This document shows positions 1 to 3,468 of a stretch of DNA of 5,136 nt, in pieces. The translations under genes and the position numbers were made by a program. Numbering within the stretch: position 1 is the first letter of the stretch; the number at the start of each line of letters is the position of its first letter. The stretch is taken from positions 1-5,136 of the forward strand of contig JAEZQV010000166.1 in NCBI GenBank assembly GCA_023441125.1. Direction: 5' to 3'. The notes below the pieces were generated by a model, which ran no database searches, was not told the DNA's origin, and saw only the letters and a list, made by a program, of their open reading frames with translations. Source of the DNA: Bacillota bacterium. Its GTDB lineage: Bacteria; Bacillota_C; Negativicutes; Sporomusales; Sporomusaceae.

Positions 1-1560
1 GGTTACATTCTTGGGATATACAGCAATATTGGTCAGGTAGGACAGCGGCAAATATACGGCCTGTTCGTGCAGCGTCGTGAAAATCTGCCGGTACATTTCC
101 TGGCGTTTGGCCTCATCGGTACTAACAAGTACATTGGTAGCCAGCCGGTCAATGTCCGCCTTCATGGGCAGGCCCAGTTGCGCCTGATAGTCGGCATGAG
201 CCGGTTCGCGCATGGAGCCTACCAGCGAATGCGGGTCATAAGGAGCGCCCCAGGTATCACTGTAAATCAGATTGAAGTTGCCGTTCTTCTGCCGTTCGAC
301 AATGGCCCCCTCTTCTTCACCGGTCAGTTTTACTTTGATGCCCACTTTCTTAAAATCTCCCTGCAGCACTTCGCCAACCGATTTTTGGATAGCATCGGTG
401 CTGACAAAACAAACTTCCAGTTCGAGCGCCTGACCGTCTTTTTCCCTAAACTCCTTACCGGGAACTTCTTGCCAGCCGGCTGCTTCCAGCAGGGCTTTGG
501 CCTTGCCCTCGCTGTACTCGTAAGGCTGTAAGCCCAGATTGCAATACGGGAAGTTAGCGGCCAGCAAGGTATCGGCTTTTAACTCCGTACCAAACAGAAC
601 CCCCTTAACAAAAGCGTCCTTATTAACAGCATGCTGAATGGCCTGACGGACTTTAAGCTCTTTCGTCGCGCCTTTATTGGAATTGATGGCCAAAACCCGG
701 GTTGCCAGCGGCTGGGATAATTGCGTTTCGTATTTGCCTGATTGCTGCAGTTGTTTGAAGGCATACAGGCTGATGCTGCCGTTGCCGTAGATCAGATTAA
801 GTTCTTTCTTTTCGAAGGCGACCACCCGCGATTCGCTGTCGGGAATGATTTTTACGACCAGTTTATCCACCTTGGGCTTGGGTCCCCAGTAATGTTCGTT
901 GCGAACAAATACCGCCACTTCCCCCTGCTTATACTCGCTTAGCACCCAGGGACCGGTCCCCACCGGTTTTTTGATGCCTTCGCCGGTATTGCCGCTATCC
1001 GGGAACTGGGACGGCGCCAGGAAACGGATAGGCCGGATGAGAGCCAGTTCCTGCAGAACAGGGTAATAGGCGTCTTTTAATACCAGTTTAAACGTATTGT
1101 CGTCGATAACCTGGGTATCTTTGATCTCGCGAATAAACGCCAGCCAGTCATGGCGCTTGCTGTTGGCCAGCACGGCATCAAAATTTTTCTTGACGGCGAC
1201 GGCGTTAAACGGCGTGCCGTCGGAGAATTTCACATCCTTACGCAGCTTAAATATGTATTCTTTGCCGTCCGGTGAGATTGTCCAGCTTTCCGCCAGCCAG
1301 GGAATTATCTTGCCGTCGGCGCTGTACTGTACCAGCGGTTCGTACACCAAGGCCTGCGCAAACATTTGATTGGGATTATACAGATGGGGATTTAAGGGGC
1401 CGATGTCTTTGGCCCAGGAAAAATTCAGAACCTTTTCTTTAGCCGGGGACTGACTTGACTGCGAACCACAGCCGGCCGCCAGGCCAGCTAACAGAAGCAG
1501 TGCAGCCAATACTATTGCATACTTTCTAAATCCGGGAAAATGTTTTGCTGTCATTGCCAT
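1..1560 (-). CDS. nikA: NikA-like nickel ABC transporter substrate-binding lipoprotein (SBP1), C-terminus cut by window edge
   Basis: This is the periplasmic binding protein of a NikABCDE-type importer (SBP_bac_5 family), expected to hand Ni(II)-chelate to a NikBC permease. The frame is open for 520 codons from ATG 1560 to the window edge; about 20 residues are missing by comparison with its neighbour SBP2. A basic start, a hydrophobic stretch and the lipobox L-A-A-G-C31 mark a lipoprotein. NikA signatures run throughout: GPLNPHLYNPNQMFAQ near 54-69, LQELALIRPIRF at 169-180, GTGPW near 201, and TWGAPYDPH at 436-444. Residues matching E. coli NikA ligand-site positions (from memory of that structure) are Met66 (Met27), Arg136 (Arg97), Trp139 (Trp100), Arg176 (Arg137), Trp437 (Trp398), Tyr441 (Tyr402) and His455 (His416, the direct nickel ligand). 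Tyr382 is replaced by Val421. The start is set by the strong ribosome site; ATG 1554 is too far from it. Its own promoter and leader lie upstream. Family assignment is very secure; nickel specificity is inferred. Confidence 0.95.
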   Translation of the reverse strand, partial: MAMTAKHFPGFRKYAIVLAALLLLAGLAAGCGSQSSQSPAKEKVLNFSWAKDIGPLNPHLYNPNQMFAQALVYEPLVQYSADGKIIPWLAESWTISPDGKEYIFKLRKDVKFSDGTPFNAVAVKKNFDAVLANSKRHDWLAFIREIKDTQVIDDNTFKLVLKDAYYPVLQELALIRPIRFLAPSQFPDSGNTGEGIKKPVGTGPWVLSEYKQGEVAVFVRNEHYWGPKPKVDKLVVKIIPDSESRVVAFEKKELNLIYGNGSISLYAFKQLQQSGKYETQLSQPLATRVLAINSNKGATKELKVRQAIQHAVNKDAFVKGVLFGTELKADTLLAANFPYCNLGLQPYEYSEGKAKALLEAAGWQEVPGKEFREKDGQALELEVCFVSTDAIQKSVGEVLQGDFKKVGIKVKLTGEEEGAIVERQKNGNFNLIYSDTWGAPYDPHSLVGSMREPAHADYQAQLGLPMKADIDRLATNVLVSTDEAKRQEMYRQIFTTLHEQAVYLPLSYLTNIAVYPKNVT

Positions 1561-1565
1561 TTGCT

Positions 1566-1575
1566 ACCTCTCCTC
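1566..1575 (-). promoter_or_regulatory. Ribosome binding site of SBP1
   Basis: The minus strand reads GAGGAGAGGT here. AGGAG lies 9 bases, and the second GAGG 6 bases, from ATG 1560. This favours ATG 1560 over the in-frame ATG at 1554, which would be 15 and 12 bases away. Confidence 0.8.
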
Positions 1576-1597
1576 ATAGTATTCTTTTAATTTATGC

Positions 1598-1636
1598 CAA
1601 ACCGACCACTACAGCCCGTCTGCATTGTCTGGTTTG
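1598..1636 (-). promoter_or_regulatory. Hairpin in the SBP1 leader between terminator and ribosome site
   Basis: The minus-strand RNA can form a long imperfect hairpin: CAAACC (1636-1631) with GGUUUG (1603-1598), then GAC (1629-1627) with GUC (1606-1604), then UGCAG (1624-1620) with CUGUA (1614-1610), closing a five-base ACGGG loop. That is 14 pairs interrupted by one bulged A and an AA/GUG internal loop. No T-run follows, so it is not a terminator. It ends about 22 bases before the SBP1 ribosome site and could stabilise the mRNA, bind a regulator or be part of a folded sensor. The pairing is seen in the sequence; the function is not known. Confidence 0.45.
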
Positions 1637-1642
1637 CGCAAT

Positions 1643-1693
1643 AAAAAAAAGCATGAAAAGCCACCGGGACTTCACGTCCGCAAGGCTTCATGC
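1643..1693 (-). terminator. Intrinsic terminator upstream of SBP1 (attenuator or end of the SBP2 transcript)
   Basis: On the minus strand, GCATGAAGCC (1693-1684) pairs with GGCTTTTCATGC (1662-1651) as a ten-pair stem with a two-base bulge. An inner GGAC/GTCC hairpin with a GTGAA loop caps it. Eight T's follow at once (1650-1643). There is no T-run on the other side, so it acts only on leftward transcription. It would stop transcripts coming through SBP2, and also transcripts from the promoter at 1771-1799, about 120 bases after their start. The terminator itself is secure; whether it is regulated is inference. Confidence 0.85.
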
Positions 1694-1720
1694 CGATTTC
1701 GCTGTTTAAATTAGATTAGT

Positions 1721-1757
1721 GGATTATGACAATTTTAATGTAGAGTCTTCATAACCC
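1721..1757 (-). promoter_or_regulatory. Inverted repeat in the leader, NikR-like half-sites or RNA stem
   Basis: The minus strand reads GGGTTATGA (1757-1749), 19 bases, then TCATAATCC (1729-1721). As RNA this is a nine-pair stem with one G-U. As DNA the cores TTATGA and TCATAA resemble the E. coli NikR half-sites GTATGA and TCATAC. However, the E. coli gap is 16 bases and here it is 19, which shifts the half-sites by about a third of a helical turn. It lies just after the predicted transcription start, a place where a repressor could block. The repeat is plainly present; NikR binding is a guess. Confidence 0.4.
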
Positions 1758-1760
1758 TAC
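1740..1760 (-). promoter_or_regulatory. 5'-proximal leader hairpin, exclusive with the 1721-1757 stem
   Basis: The minus-strand RNA GUAGGGU (1760-1754) pairs with ACUCUAC (1746-1740) in seven pairs, one of them G-U, around the loop UAUGAAG. It would begin about four bases after the predicted transcript start. Because 1754-1757 is also needed by the longer stem 1721-1757, the two folds cannot coexist, as is common in RNA switches. It could also simply protect the 5' end. Confidence 0.4.
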
Positions 1761-1761
1761 T

Positions 1762-1776
1762 TACAAAATAATTGTA
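1762..1776. promoter_or_regulatory. Candidate operator TACAA-N5-TTGTA over the -10 region
   Basis: A perfect five-base inverted repeat with a five-base AT-rich centre runs from the predicted -10 to the predicted transcription start. This is a usual position for a repressor site. It is short and lies in AT-rich DNA, so chance is a real possibility. I do not recognise it as a Fur, Zur, PerR or NikR box. Confidence 0.25.
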
Positions 1777-1799
1777 CATTGTAGTCTGCTTTTTGTAAA
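1771..1799 (-). promoter_or_regulatory. Sigma-70-type promoter for SBP1
   Basis: The minus strand has TTTACA (1799-1794), a 17-base spacer and TACAAT (1776-1771). Each hexamer matches the TTGACA/TATAAT consensus at five of six positions, and the spacer is optimal. It lies in the AT-rich gap behind SBP2 and points at SBP1. Transcription would start near 1764, giving a leader of about 200 bases before ATG 1560. No start site has been measured. Confidence 0.6.
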
Positions 1800-1848
1800 T
1801 AGTGAAAAAATTATCTTATTTCAGGTTCTATCAATTATAGGTGCCTCA

Positions 1849-3468
1849 TTAGTCCTGCTGAACCTCCATATCGGCAAAGGGAATGTCACACTGATTAGCT
1901 TGAAAGGCAACCCCGGAAATTTTTTTATGATAAACAGCCAGATTGGATAGATAGGTGAGCGGTATGTATATGGCCTGGTCATGCAAGGTCCGGAGGATGT
2001 AGGTATATAACTCCTGGCGTTTTTCTTTATTCGTACTGATTAATGCCTGGGAAATAGCTTCGTCAAGCCTGGCTTTCATCGGCAAGCCCAACTGAACCTG
2101 ATAGTCGGTAGACGGCTCGCGCATCGAACTTAAAAGCGAATGCGGGTCATACGGAACCCCCCAGGTATCAACAAAGGCCATATGAAAATCTCCTTCTTTC
2201 CGGCGCTGCACAAAGGCTACTGCTTCTTCTGTAATCAAATTGAGTTTAACACCGATCTTTCTCATATCTCCCTGTAACACTTCAGCTATTGACTTTTGTA
2301 TGGCATTGGTAGCTTCAACGCATAAATCCAGGGCCAGTACCTGACCGTCCTTTTCCCGGAACTCTTTGCCGGGTATCAGGCGCCAGCCGGCTTGCTCCAG
2401 CATCGCTCCGGCCTGCTCAAGATTAAATTCGTAGGGTGTAAGATTTATATTACAATAGGGAAAGCTTGGAGCAAACAAAGTATCGGCTTGGCGTTCTGTT
2501 CCGAAAAATATCCCTTTAACCAAGGCATCCTTATCCACCGCCAGTTCAAGCGCCTGGCGCACCTGCAGGTCTTTGGTCGGACCTTTGTTGGAATTCAGGG
2601 CAATTGTCCGGGTGGCCAGCGGTGCTGACAGCCTGGTATCATATTTGCCGGAGTCTCTTAACTGCTTGAAGGCATCTACACTGATGCTGCCATTGCCATA
2701 GATAAGATCAAGTTCTTTTTTTTCAAAAGCGATCACCCGGGATTCGCTGTCAGGAATAATCTTGACTATAATTCTTTCAATGGCAGGCTTGGTTCGCCAA
2801 TAGTATTCATTGCGCACAAATACCGCCCTTTCACCAGGCTGGTATTCATTTAATACCCAAGGGCCGGTACCTATCGGCTTCTTAATAGTATCCGCAGTAT
2901 TGCCATTATCAGGGAAGGCCGAGGGGGCCAGGAAACGCAGGGGACGTATTAAGGCCAATTCCTGCAACGCCGGATAGTAAGCATTATTAAGTGTCATTTT
3001 AAACGTATACTCGTCAATTACCTCAATTGCTTTAATTTGCTTAATTAATTCCAGCCAGCTATGGCTTTGTTTGTTAGCCAAAACCGCATCAAAATTCTTT
3101 TTCGCTGCGGCGGCGTTAAAATCCGTACCGTCGGAGAATCTTACGCCCTTGCGCAGCGTAAAAAGATATTCCCTGCCGTCCGGCGAAATGCGCCAACTCT
3201 CTGCCAGCCCGGGAACAATCCTGCCGTCATTGCTGCATTGTACCAGGGAATCATATACCATGGTCTGGGCAAACATTTCGCTATTATAAAGGTGCGGATT
3301 CATCTCCCCGATATCTTTCGGCCAGGAGATGGTCAGGGTCTTTAGGTTAGCGGGGGCTTGCGCCCCCTGGCCGCCACAGCCGGTTGTCAAACCGTTCAGC
3401 AACATGAATATGCCCAACAGGATCAATGACAGTATCAGCCTTTTACCCTTACTAGTTTTAAGCAACAT
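1849..3468 (-). CDS. NikA-like substrate-binding lipoprotein paralogue (SBP2) lacking the nickel-ligand His
   Basis: This 539-residue SBP_bac_5 protein is a close paralogue of SBP1 and should be the periplasmic receptor of a NikA/peptide-type ABC importer. It has a basic N-terminus, a hydrophobic stretch and the lipobox L-T-T-G-C31; Thr at -3 is less usual than Leu. NikA hallmarks are present: NPHLYNSEMFAQ (57-68), LQELALIRPLRF (168-179), GTGPW (200-204) and TWGVPYDPH (435-443). Met65, Trp138, Arg175, Trp436 and Tyr440 match E. coli NikA pocket residues. Two key positions differ: Ser135 replaces Arg97, and the VPSHAD loop holding His416 becomes EPSTD (451-455), one residue shorter with no His. 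A different metal-chelate, or a chelate that fully wraps its metal, is therefore likely. It follows the methyltransferase by 12 bases with only a weak ribosome site, which suggests translational coupling. A stop codon at 3474-3472 rules out an upstream start. Function class is secure; ligand unknown. Confidence 0.92.
   Translation of the reverse strand: MLLKTSKGKRLILSLILLGIFMLLNGLTTGCGGQGAQAPANLKTLTISWPKDIGEMNPHLYNSEMFAQTMVYDSLVQCSNDGRIVPGLAESWRISPDGREYLFTLRKGVRFSDGTDFNAAAAKKNFDAVLANKQSHSWLELIKQIKAIEVIDEYTFKMTLNNAYYPALQELALIRPLRFLAPSAFPDNGNTADTIKKPIGTGPWVLNEYQPGERAVFVRNEYYWRTKPAIERIIVKIIPDSESRVIAFEKKELDLIYGNGSISVDAFKQLRDSGKYDTRLSAPLATRTIALNSNKGPTKDLQVRQALELAVDKDALVKGIFFGTERQADTLFAPSFPYCNINLTPYEFNLEQAGAMLEQAGWRLIPGKEFREKDGQVLALDLCVEATNAIQKSIAEVLQGDMRKIGVKLNLITEEAVAFVQRRKEGDFHMAFVDTWGVPYDPHSLLSSMREPSTDYQVQLGLPMKARLDEAISQALISTNKEKRQELYTYILRTLHDQAIYIPLTYLSNLAVYHKKISGVAFQANQCDIPFADMEVQQD

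Follow-up and report, generated by a model that had tools for sequence, protein, structure and literature searches.

How is a metal-transport gene controlled when its promoter lies upstream of a strong terminator? This question is raised by the locus studied here, a stretch of DNA of 5,136 nucleotides (hereafter the window) on whose minus strand lie the end of the gene for a TonB-dependent receptor, a methyltransferase gene and the genes for two substrate-binding proteins of the NikA type (SBP2 and SBP1). Among named relatives, proteins of Sporomusa and Methylomusa are the best matches to SBP1. An earlier note on this DNA had placed a promoter, several hairpins and a terminator in the 288 bases between SBP2 and SBP1 (1561-1848, minus strand) and had read them as the layout of a transcription-terminating riboswitch. 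The gap is as described, and its order on the minus strand is promoter, hairpin P1, a linker of 45 nucleotides and a terminator with a run of eight U residues (U8). The individual features are listed here.

1..1560, minus strand: SBP1, the controlled gene, encoding a NikA-type substrate-binding protein; runs off the window (TIGR02294 nickel_nikA, 702.9 bits versus a cut-off of 393; PF00496)

1849..3468, minus strand: SBP2, the NikA-type paralogue upstream (TIGR02294, 670.4 bits versus a cut-off of 393)

1794..1817, minus strand: block GATAATTTTTTCACTATTTACA, which runs into the -35 TTTACA; possible operator or upstream element, nearly identical in relatives

1799-1794, minus strand: -35 hexamer TTTACA (promoter match 10/12)

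1771..1776, minus strand: -10 hexamer TACAAT, separated from the -35 by a spacer of 17 nucleotides (promoter match 10/12)

1740..1760, minus strand: P1 hairpin GUAGGGUU-AUGAA-GACUCUAC with the pentaloop AUGAA, at the 5′-end of the transcript (-7.5 kcal/mol)

1695..1739, minus strand: linker of 45 nucleotides, unconserved, with structure not above chance (mean z -0.2 over 37 long linkers)

1684..1694, minus strand: P2 mini-hairpin GGC-AUGAA-GCC of 3 bp, whose bases double as the terminator's 5′-arm; putative antiterminator (covariation)

1643..1694, minus strand: intrinsic terminator with the 5′-arm from 1694, the 3′-arm at 1662-1650 and U8 at 1650-1643 (-22.5 kcal/mol)

1667..1679, minus strand: P3, hairpin GGAC-GUGAA-GUCC inside the terminator, at its top (predicted fold; pairs kept in 6 or 7 of the 7 A2 sequences)

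1598..1636, minus strand: hairpin between the terminator and the ribosome site (fold only, unconserved)

The 210-nucleotide leader folds better than its shuffles (z -2.30; 4 of 200 shuffles were as good). The promoter at 1771-1799, the 5′-hairpin at 1740-1760 and the terminator with eight T's named in the earlier note were all recovered. A promoter scan was overall not above chance (8 sites versus 6.2 in shuffles); the TTTACA/TACAAT site is conserved in relatives, and transcription is predicted to start near position 1764 on the minus strand. The pattern scan for terminators did not list 1643-1694, as the stem is interrupted. A simpler explanation for such a terminator between SBP2 and SBP1 would be that it ends the SBP2 operon and that the promoter is unrelated to it, or that a small RNA terminates at 1643, with SBP1 being unregulated. 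However, the promoter lies upstream of the terminator, and the unit of P1, P2 and terminator recurs before unrelated genes with compensated changes, which renders this explanation very improbable.

Two other folds of the earlier note stood only in part. The proposed competing stem at 1721-1757 does form nine pairs in the window, but it is not conserved as a switch stem: when eight other leaders were inspected, the left side of P1 formed a helix of 7-8 pairs with the linker in three, and in the remaining five the left arm of P1 pairs best with its own right arm. Likewise, the hairpin at 1598-1636 folds in the window but is not conserved in the three SBP1 relatives that were folded; at roughly the same position, L133 contains a smaller and different hairpin (-9.1 versus -21.0 for the window stretch), and nothing alike is present in the other two. 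A conserved competitor of the terminator nevertheless exists, which the earlier note did not contain, namely P2 inside the terminator arm. Conservation of the stems in relatives, by which the earlier proposal was to be judged, is therefore seen for P1, P2 and the terminator and not for the nine-pair stem or the hairpin at 1598-1636.

When the gap was compared by blastn with 12 genomes of the Sporomusa malonica family, six were matched at E≤0.001. These matches precede SBP1 orthologues (L095, L096, L098) and other genes, and two pieces of the gap are conserved separately, one comprising the promoter and P1, the other the terminator. No plasmid relatives of the gap were found at E≤1e-5. The block GATAATTTTTTCACTATTTACA falls inside the matching stretch 32-107 of the gap and has hardly changed in the leaders of SBP1 and GNAT genes in four relatives (L133, L139:12898, L144, L151). 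Within this SBP1/GNAT group the block (window 1794-1817, minus strand) is more conserved than the linker, and it may serve as an operator for a DNA-binding regulator.

Two covariance models were employed, R1 built from seven copies and R2 for a compact subtype; their E-values are rough owing to a short calibration. In the Sporomusa malonica family, R1 gave matches at E≤1 in at least 11 of the 12 genomes, with a best match of 4.2e-4 in the weakest genome. At 1.3 Mb, G003, the only family genome that R1 did not match, is small; no ANTAR match in it exceeded the cut-off. In a search of the class, at least 16 of 300 genomes were matched at E≤0.01, including five from outside the family; of these, L188-L191 show P1 and P2 and L192 does not. 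Among the genomes of the class of Desulfotruncus arcticus, at least 5 of 113 were matched at E≤0.05, and visual inspection favours L212, L213 and L214 as real elements, leaves L215 in doubt and rejects L216. At least 3 of 20 genomes of another class gave matches at E≤0.01, and R2 found matches at E≤0.05 in at least 10 of 380 genomes of the class searched first. Copy numbers are minimum values, because only part of the candidates was scored per genome (up to 150 in the family and 20-genome searches, 11 in the 300 genomes, 12 with R2 and 30 in the 113 genomes) and because R1 missed the copies in L001 and L002. Within the window, R1 at E≤1 matches only 1641-1770; no such element was found before SBP2.

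As a control free of R1, the loci L001-L079 were picked by protein similarity and scanned blindly for a 3-bp A[UC]GAA hairpin that doubles as a terminator arm. The two Sporomusa loci L001 and L002 (43 kb) yielded three P2-terminators, all with P1 within 120 nucleotides, versus none for any of the seven control loops. The 21 matches in the remaining 77 loci (1.57 Mb) equal the background of 3 to 22 for the control loops; five of the 21 are concentrated in L003 (Desulfotruncus) and L006 (a Peptococcaceae MAG). The 89 matches (57 with P1) in R1-selected loci, versus 0 to 8 for the control loops, show only that R1 undercounts, because those loci were selected by R1.

The SBP1-orthologue leader of S. 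malonica is instructive, as neither R1 nor blastn gave a match there although it holds a diverged copy. It consists of P1 (GACGGC-UGAA-GCUGUC), a linker of 10 nucleotides, P2 (ACC-AUGAA-GGU) and a terminator of -17.0 kcal/mol. Compared with the window, both arms of P2 and the 3′-arm have changed together, and pairing is kept. In S. silvacetica, no element lies directly before the SBP1 orthologue in the stretch examined; a copy is located earlier, at L002:8635.

The copies analysed further derive from 88 R1 matches, of which 69 were taken forward after leaving out the 17 matches ranked below L139:5264 and two on the opposite strand (L143:4196, L160:1948). P2 was sought in 74 stretches, namely these 69 and L188-L192. 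No P2-terminator was present in L165:2233, L153:6243, L139:5264 and L192, leaving 70 copies with P2 and terminator; L171:15704 was placed by hand, and removal of one duplicate resulted in 69 distinct copies from 15 genomes plus the window. The elements of L001-L003, L006, L212-L214 and L229-L232 stand outside this set (A4).

In these copies the 5′-arm of the terminator begins with N3-A[U/C]GAA-N3, and the flanking triplets are complementary to each other. Across the 69 copies, 99.0% of 206 cells of P2 are paired, versus 82.8% after shuffling and at most 54% in the slid-partner controls. Double changes occur at all three of the three pairs, with 38 double-change cells versus 3.6 in shuffles, a control that leaves the kinship among copies in; the number of further pair types is not above shuffles (6 versus 5.6). 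The terminator, which uses the same bases as P2, is paired in 95.8% of 620 cells over the 69 copies and contains 53 double-change cells. The arm combinations of P2 are GGU-GCC (23), GGU-ACC (17), GGC-GCC (12), ACC-GGU (6), GCC-GGU (5) and five rarer ones. The loop is AUGAA in 61 of 69 copies and ACGAA in 8, where the collecting script required A[UC]GAA. P2 and the terminator are therefore mutually exclusive helices that share bases. The self-pairing of P2 is not required by the terminator, since both half-arms pair with the 3′-arm. Moreover, the absence of single-sided P2 intermediates is probably not made by the search, because R1 should score them above double changes.

The hairpin P1 was sought by pattern. 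A hairpin of this type (at least 5 bp, loop of 4-5 nucleotides ending in GAA) lies within 120 nucleotides upstream of P2 in 46 of 69 copies, versus 3.7 in dinucleotide shuffles (maximum 9). Five control loop endings gave 1, 6, 6, 2 and 5, within their shuffle ranges; two of them exceed the shuffle mean yet stay in range, AAG with 6 versus 2.9 (maximum 7) and GAU with 6 versus 3.4 (maximum 7). As the search pattern ended in GAA, the invariance of the P1 loop is not a result, and only the excess over shuffles counts. In 23 of the 69 copies, P1 is missing or was unrecognised in the 120 nucleotides searched. Promoter-like pairs (at least 10/12) were found upstream of P1 in 36 of 48 copies, versus 2.3 in shuffles, and P1 therefore lies near the 5′-end of the transcript.

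The distance between the two hairpins varies strongly. Among the 48 copies with P1, the linker measures 6-9 nucleotides in 11 and 23-116 nucleotides in 37. The compact subtype A5 comprises 11 copies with linkers of 6-8 nucleotides; the short-linker P1 of L134:15239 is probably wrong and was kept out of this set. A helix within the linker that would bring P1 and P2 to a short distance, as in ANTAR targets, was considered and dismissed: the 37 long linkers fold like shuffles (mean z -0.2; external length 22.4 versus 20.3), and single subtypes do carry a hairpin.

The high copy number per genome, which reaches 9 in set A4, might suggest a dispersed repeat or a mobile terminator-like element that was copied around and has no regulatory role. 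Such an origin is extremely improbable, considering that the sequence outside P1, P2 and the terminator differs between groups, that promoters lie upstream of P1 and that changes in the arms are compensated. Some copies recur at an exact spacing, 701,564 bases on contig C2 of G007 and 25,748 bases on contig C1 of G012, which suggests duplicated stretches or assembly artefacts. Tandem pairs before one gene were observed at L162:15810-16076 and L166:18445-18876 (both minus strand), where the gene encodes a TonB receptor, and at L006:5756 and 5882 (plus strand) before a NikA-type gene, as if two switches were placed in series. At about 5165-5514 of L102 and L139, divergent elements occupy both strands between DUF3842-like and FmdE genes, and the FmdE copy has no clear P1.

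Which genes follow the element? For each of the 69 sites, a script assigned the longest open frame starting within 600 nucleotides, and Pfam confirmed one or two representatives per group. The largest groups are methyltransferases (12), SBP_bac_5 proteins (7), DUF3842 (5) and TonB receptors (5 sites, 3 genes), followed by FmdE (5, one at a site without P2), ABC permeases (5), GNAT acetyltransferases (4, in one case with a permease gene next), Rex-like regulators (3) and ExbB (3). The assignments are weak where the frame is without a partner in the set (14 of the 69 sites) or begins more than 400 nucleotides away, as some do. The first genes outside the family, determined by eye, encode CbiM (L188, L189), FmdE (L190), an ABC permease (L191), CbiQ-CbiO (L212), a substrate-binding protein after cbiM-cbiN (L213), an ABC ATPase pair (L214), a CobN-like chelatase (L230, L232) and a NikA-type protein (L006). 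Genes with no metal theme follow the element at L231 and at one copy of L003. As predicted from these annotations, the common theme is the uptake of nickel, cobalt or related metals, and the leader is a member of a dispersed family of predicted RNA switches that precede such uptake genes. That the leader itself responds to metal is a guess from the gene content. Acetogens such as Sporomusa have a high demand for nickel and cobalt, for CO dehydrogenase/acetyl-CoA synthase and corrinoid proteins.

The FmdE-like protein encoded behind the element at L152:7519-8127 has a C-terminal zinc finger of the dksA/traR type. At L144:15777-15889 (plus strand), about 4 kb beyond the SBP1 orthologue of Sporomusa termitida, there is a weak match to the Moco (molybdenum/tungsten) riboswitch (28.1 bits versus a gathering score of 36).

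A promoter upstream of a terminator together with a conserved, mutually exclusive helix is the general mark of an attenuator or antiterminator, and both are present in the leader. The proposal that transcription of a metal-transport gene is attenuated here thus gains strong support from the recurrence of the promoter-P1-terminator layout with covarying alternative helices. Alone, P2 reaches only -0.3 to -2.5 kcal/mol (five variants) versus -22.5 kcal/mol for the terminator of the window. Being nearly unstable by comparison, P2 should need some binder to be held, and for this reason we infer activation, the bound state being the one that allows read-through. In addition, what is conserved is a pair of small hairpins sharing one loop sequence, which gives the leader the look of a protein-bound antiterminator. 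With moderate confidence, we consider the leader a two-hairpin, protein-dependent transcription antiterminator of a metal-acquisition regulon, most likely served by an ANTAR-type factor.

The comparison shows conserved alternative helices, their dispersion and their gene company; for the mechanism we infer the binding, the direction of control, the identity of the factor and the signal as follows. RNA polymerase would start near 1764, and P1 would form at once. By default, the arm from 1694 would pair with 1662-1650, and transcription would stop at the U-run 1650-1643. An active trans-acting factor would bind the AUGAA loops of P1 and of nascent P2, hold P2 folded and block the terminator, such that SBP1 would be transcribed. 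The likeliest factor would be an ANTAR-type RNA-binding response regulator that reads a pentaloop variant, with a PdtaR-like protein as first candidate. Because the same switch precedes many nickel/cobalt-type uptake operons, one factor would open the whole metal-acquisition regulon, most likely in metal shortage.

Could the two hairpins instead form a riboswitch, jointly binding a small ligand such as a metal ion, a metal chelate or a corrinoid that keeps P2 folded? The guanidine-II (mini-ykkC) riboswitch consists of two hairpins with identical loops (ACGR) and a variable linker. The element shares with it the pair of hairpins with the same loop and the variable linker, but its loop differs, P2 itself is an arm of the terminator, and Rfam gave no match. 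The NiCo, cobalamin and Moco riboswitches are larger aptamers; the gene company of the element is as expected for these (Ni, Co, Mo), but none of them matched it in Rfam. Specifically, the Rfam 15 covariance models gave zero matches to the gap (1561-1848) at E≤10 and zero to the elements of seven loci at E≤1; the earlier note had recognised no NiCo, cobalamin or other common class. Direct ligand binding would suit the predominance of uptake genes downstream, the concentration of conservation in two loops and the genome G110, which bears an element and has no ANTAR match. On the other hand, there is little conserved information, the linkers range from 6 to 116 nucleotides with the long ones folded no better than shuffles, P1 is missing or unrecognised in a third of the copies (23/69), and the Rfam searches were negative, so that we regard a riboswitch as unlikely. 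The attenuation layout claimed together with the riboswitch stands, and nothing specific speaks for direct ligand binding.

The comparison with ANTAR targets returns us to the protein-dependent antiterminator. According to PMC3369931, ANTAR targets are built from a pair of mini-hairpins, each with a 3-bp stem and a hexaloop (A1, G4), and the second overlaps the terminator; the eut motif AGCAANGRRGCUY lies over the 5′-side of the terminator, and the eut linker measures 5-12 nucleotides. Antitermination by EutV is lost when the linker is lengthened (PMC3369931, PMC8934654), in PMC8934654 by 20 nucleotides. Like the targets of EutV (eut), NasR (nasF) and AmiR (amiE), the element has paired small hairpins with matching loops, the second over the 5′-arm of the terminator, a short P2 stem, a loop whose first base is A and whose last three are G and two purines, and a regulon-like dispersion. 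In contrast to these targets, its loop is a pentaloop A-N-G-A-A with G at position 3 rather than a hexaloop with A1 and G4, its P1 stem often has 5-9 pairs, and its linker measures 45 nucleotides in the window and 23-116 nucleotides in 37 of the 48 copies with P1. A linker near the ANTAR length is found only in the compact subtype A5 (6-8 nucleotides) and in the S. malonica SBP1 leader (10 nucleotides). The gene themes differ as well, being metal-related here and mostly nitrogen management in the published ANTAR survey (PMC3369931). Hence, two hairpins with the second over the terminator are present in the window, whereas the A1/G4 hexaloop and the short linker are not, and the element is termed ANTAR-like and not filed as an ANTAR target because its loop size and the window linker differ.

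An ANTAR protein is encoded in 11 of the 12 family genomes, the exception being G003, which also lacks the element. An ANTAR match is also present in the genomes G034, G061, G085, G381, G397 and G414. This co-occurrence was ruled out as proof, since ANTAR proteins are common in the class (277 of 380 genomes) and since G110 carries a good element (L190) and zero ANTAR matches in its genome. The common ANTAR protein of the family is PdtaR-like, with 1s8n/Rv1626 as its closest relative (E 1e-59). Its gene adjoins that of a kinase whose match to PdtaS is weak (3.7e-7, fourth of five); its other neighbours are groES/groEL. In an alignment by eye with the EutV contact residues, Arg142, Lys143, Lys149, Glu160, Tyr164, Met172 and Arg175 are kept in the PdtaR-like protein, whereas Arg168, Asn173 and Arg177 are lost and Arg stands in place of Lys147. 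Mycobacterial PdtaS/PdtaR is tied to copper/NO and to heme/iron (PMC8131098, PMC11537054). The Sporomusaceae pair resembles it in combining an ANTAR response regulator with a partner kinase, both being sequence relatives; it differs in neighbouring groES/groEL and in that its tie to the leaders is only proposed. The PdtaR-like protein is thus at most an attractive candidate, the first one, for the regulator of the leaders.

Alternatively, the element could be bound by an RNA-binding protein outside the ANTAR family, a dedicated metal-sensing antiterminator. The pentaloop and the long linkers, which depart from the ANTAR rules, and the missing ANTAR match in G110 would agree with such a protein; yet the first downstream genes offer no candidate, and the loop and the overlap with the terminator closely resemble ANTAR targets as described in PMC3369931. 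We therefore judge this alternative somewhat unlikely. More tentatively than the antiterminator with an ANTAR-type factor, we propose that the element represents a new antiterminator class, in which two ANGAA-pentaloop hairpins would be read by a metal-sensing RNA-binding factor (a protein that does not follow the ANTAR rule or a bound metal chelate), coordinating nickel/cobalt acquisition across Negativicutes and Desulfotomaculia-type Firmicutes.

A search of openly licensed papers found no report of such a motif controlling nickel/cobalt uptake genes, and the words nickel, cobalt, ANTAR and FmdE are absent from the main text of two surveys of bacterial structured RNAs. The element is a defined RNA with tens of copies and a clear predicted structure. 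Should pentaloops spaced by long linkers prove to be read by an ANTAR protein, the recognition rule in the literature must be widened; otherwise, a new RNA-binding sensor awaits discovery. The recurrence of this switch ahead of many nickel, cobalt and related uptake genes in Sporomusa-like bacteria suggests that one factor turns on a whole metal-uptake programme.

Hairpins of another type were seen beside ANTAR genes. In L184, L185, L186 and L187, tandem hairpins of the GGGC-AAUAGC-GCCC type, the last of which overlaps a terminator, lie between a second ANTAR regulator and a permease-like gene; their hexaloop has G at position 5, not 4, and the amino-acid-permease-like gene perhaps serves ethanolamine. 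The gap between the ANTAR gene and groES in L174 contains a GGGCAAAAUGCUC hairpin, a short terminator and then, before groES, a CIRCE-like repeat; the GGGCAAAAUGCUC hairpin is possibly another ANTAR-type leader.
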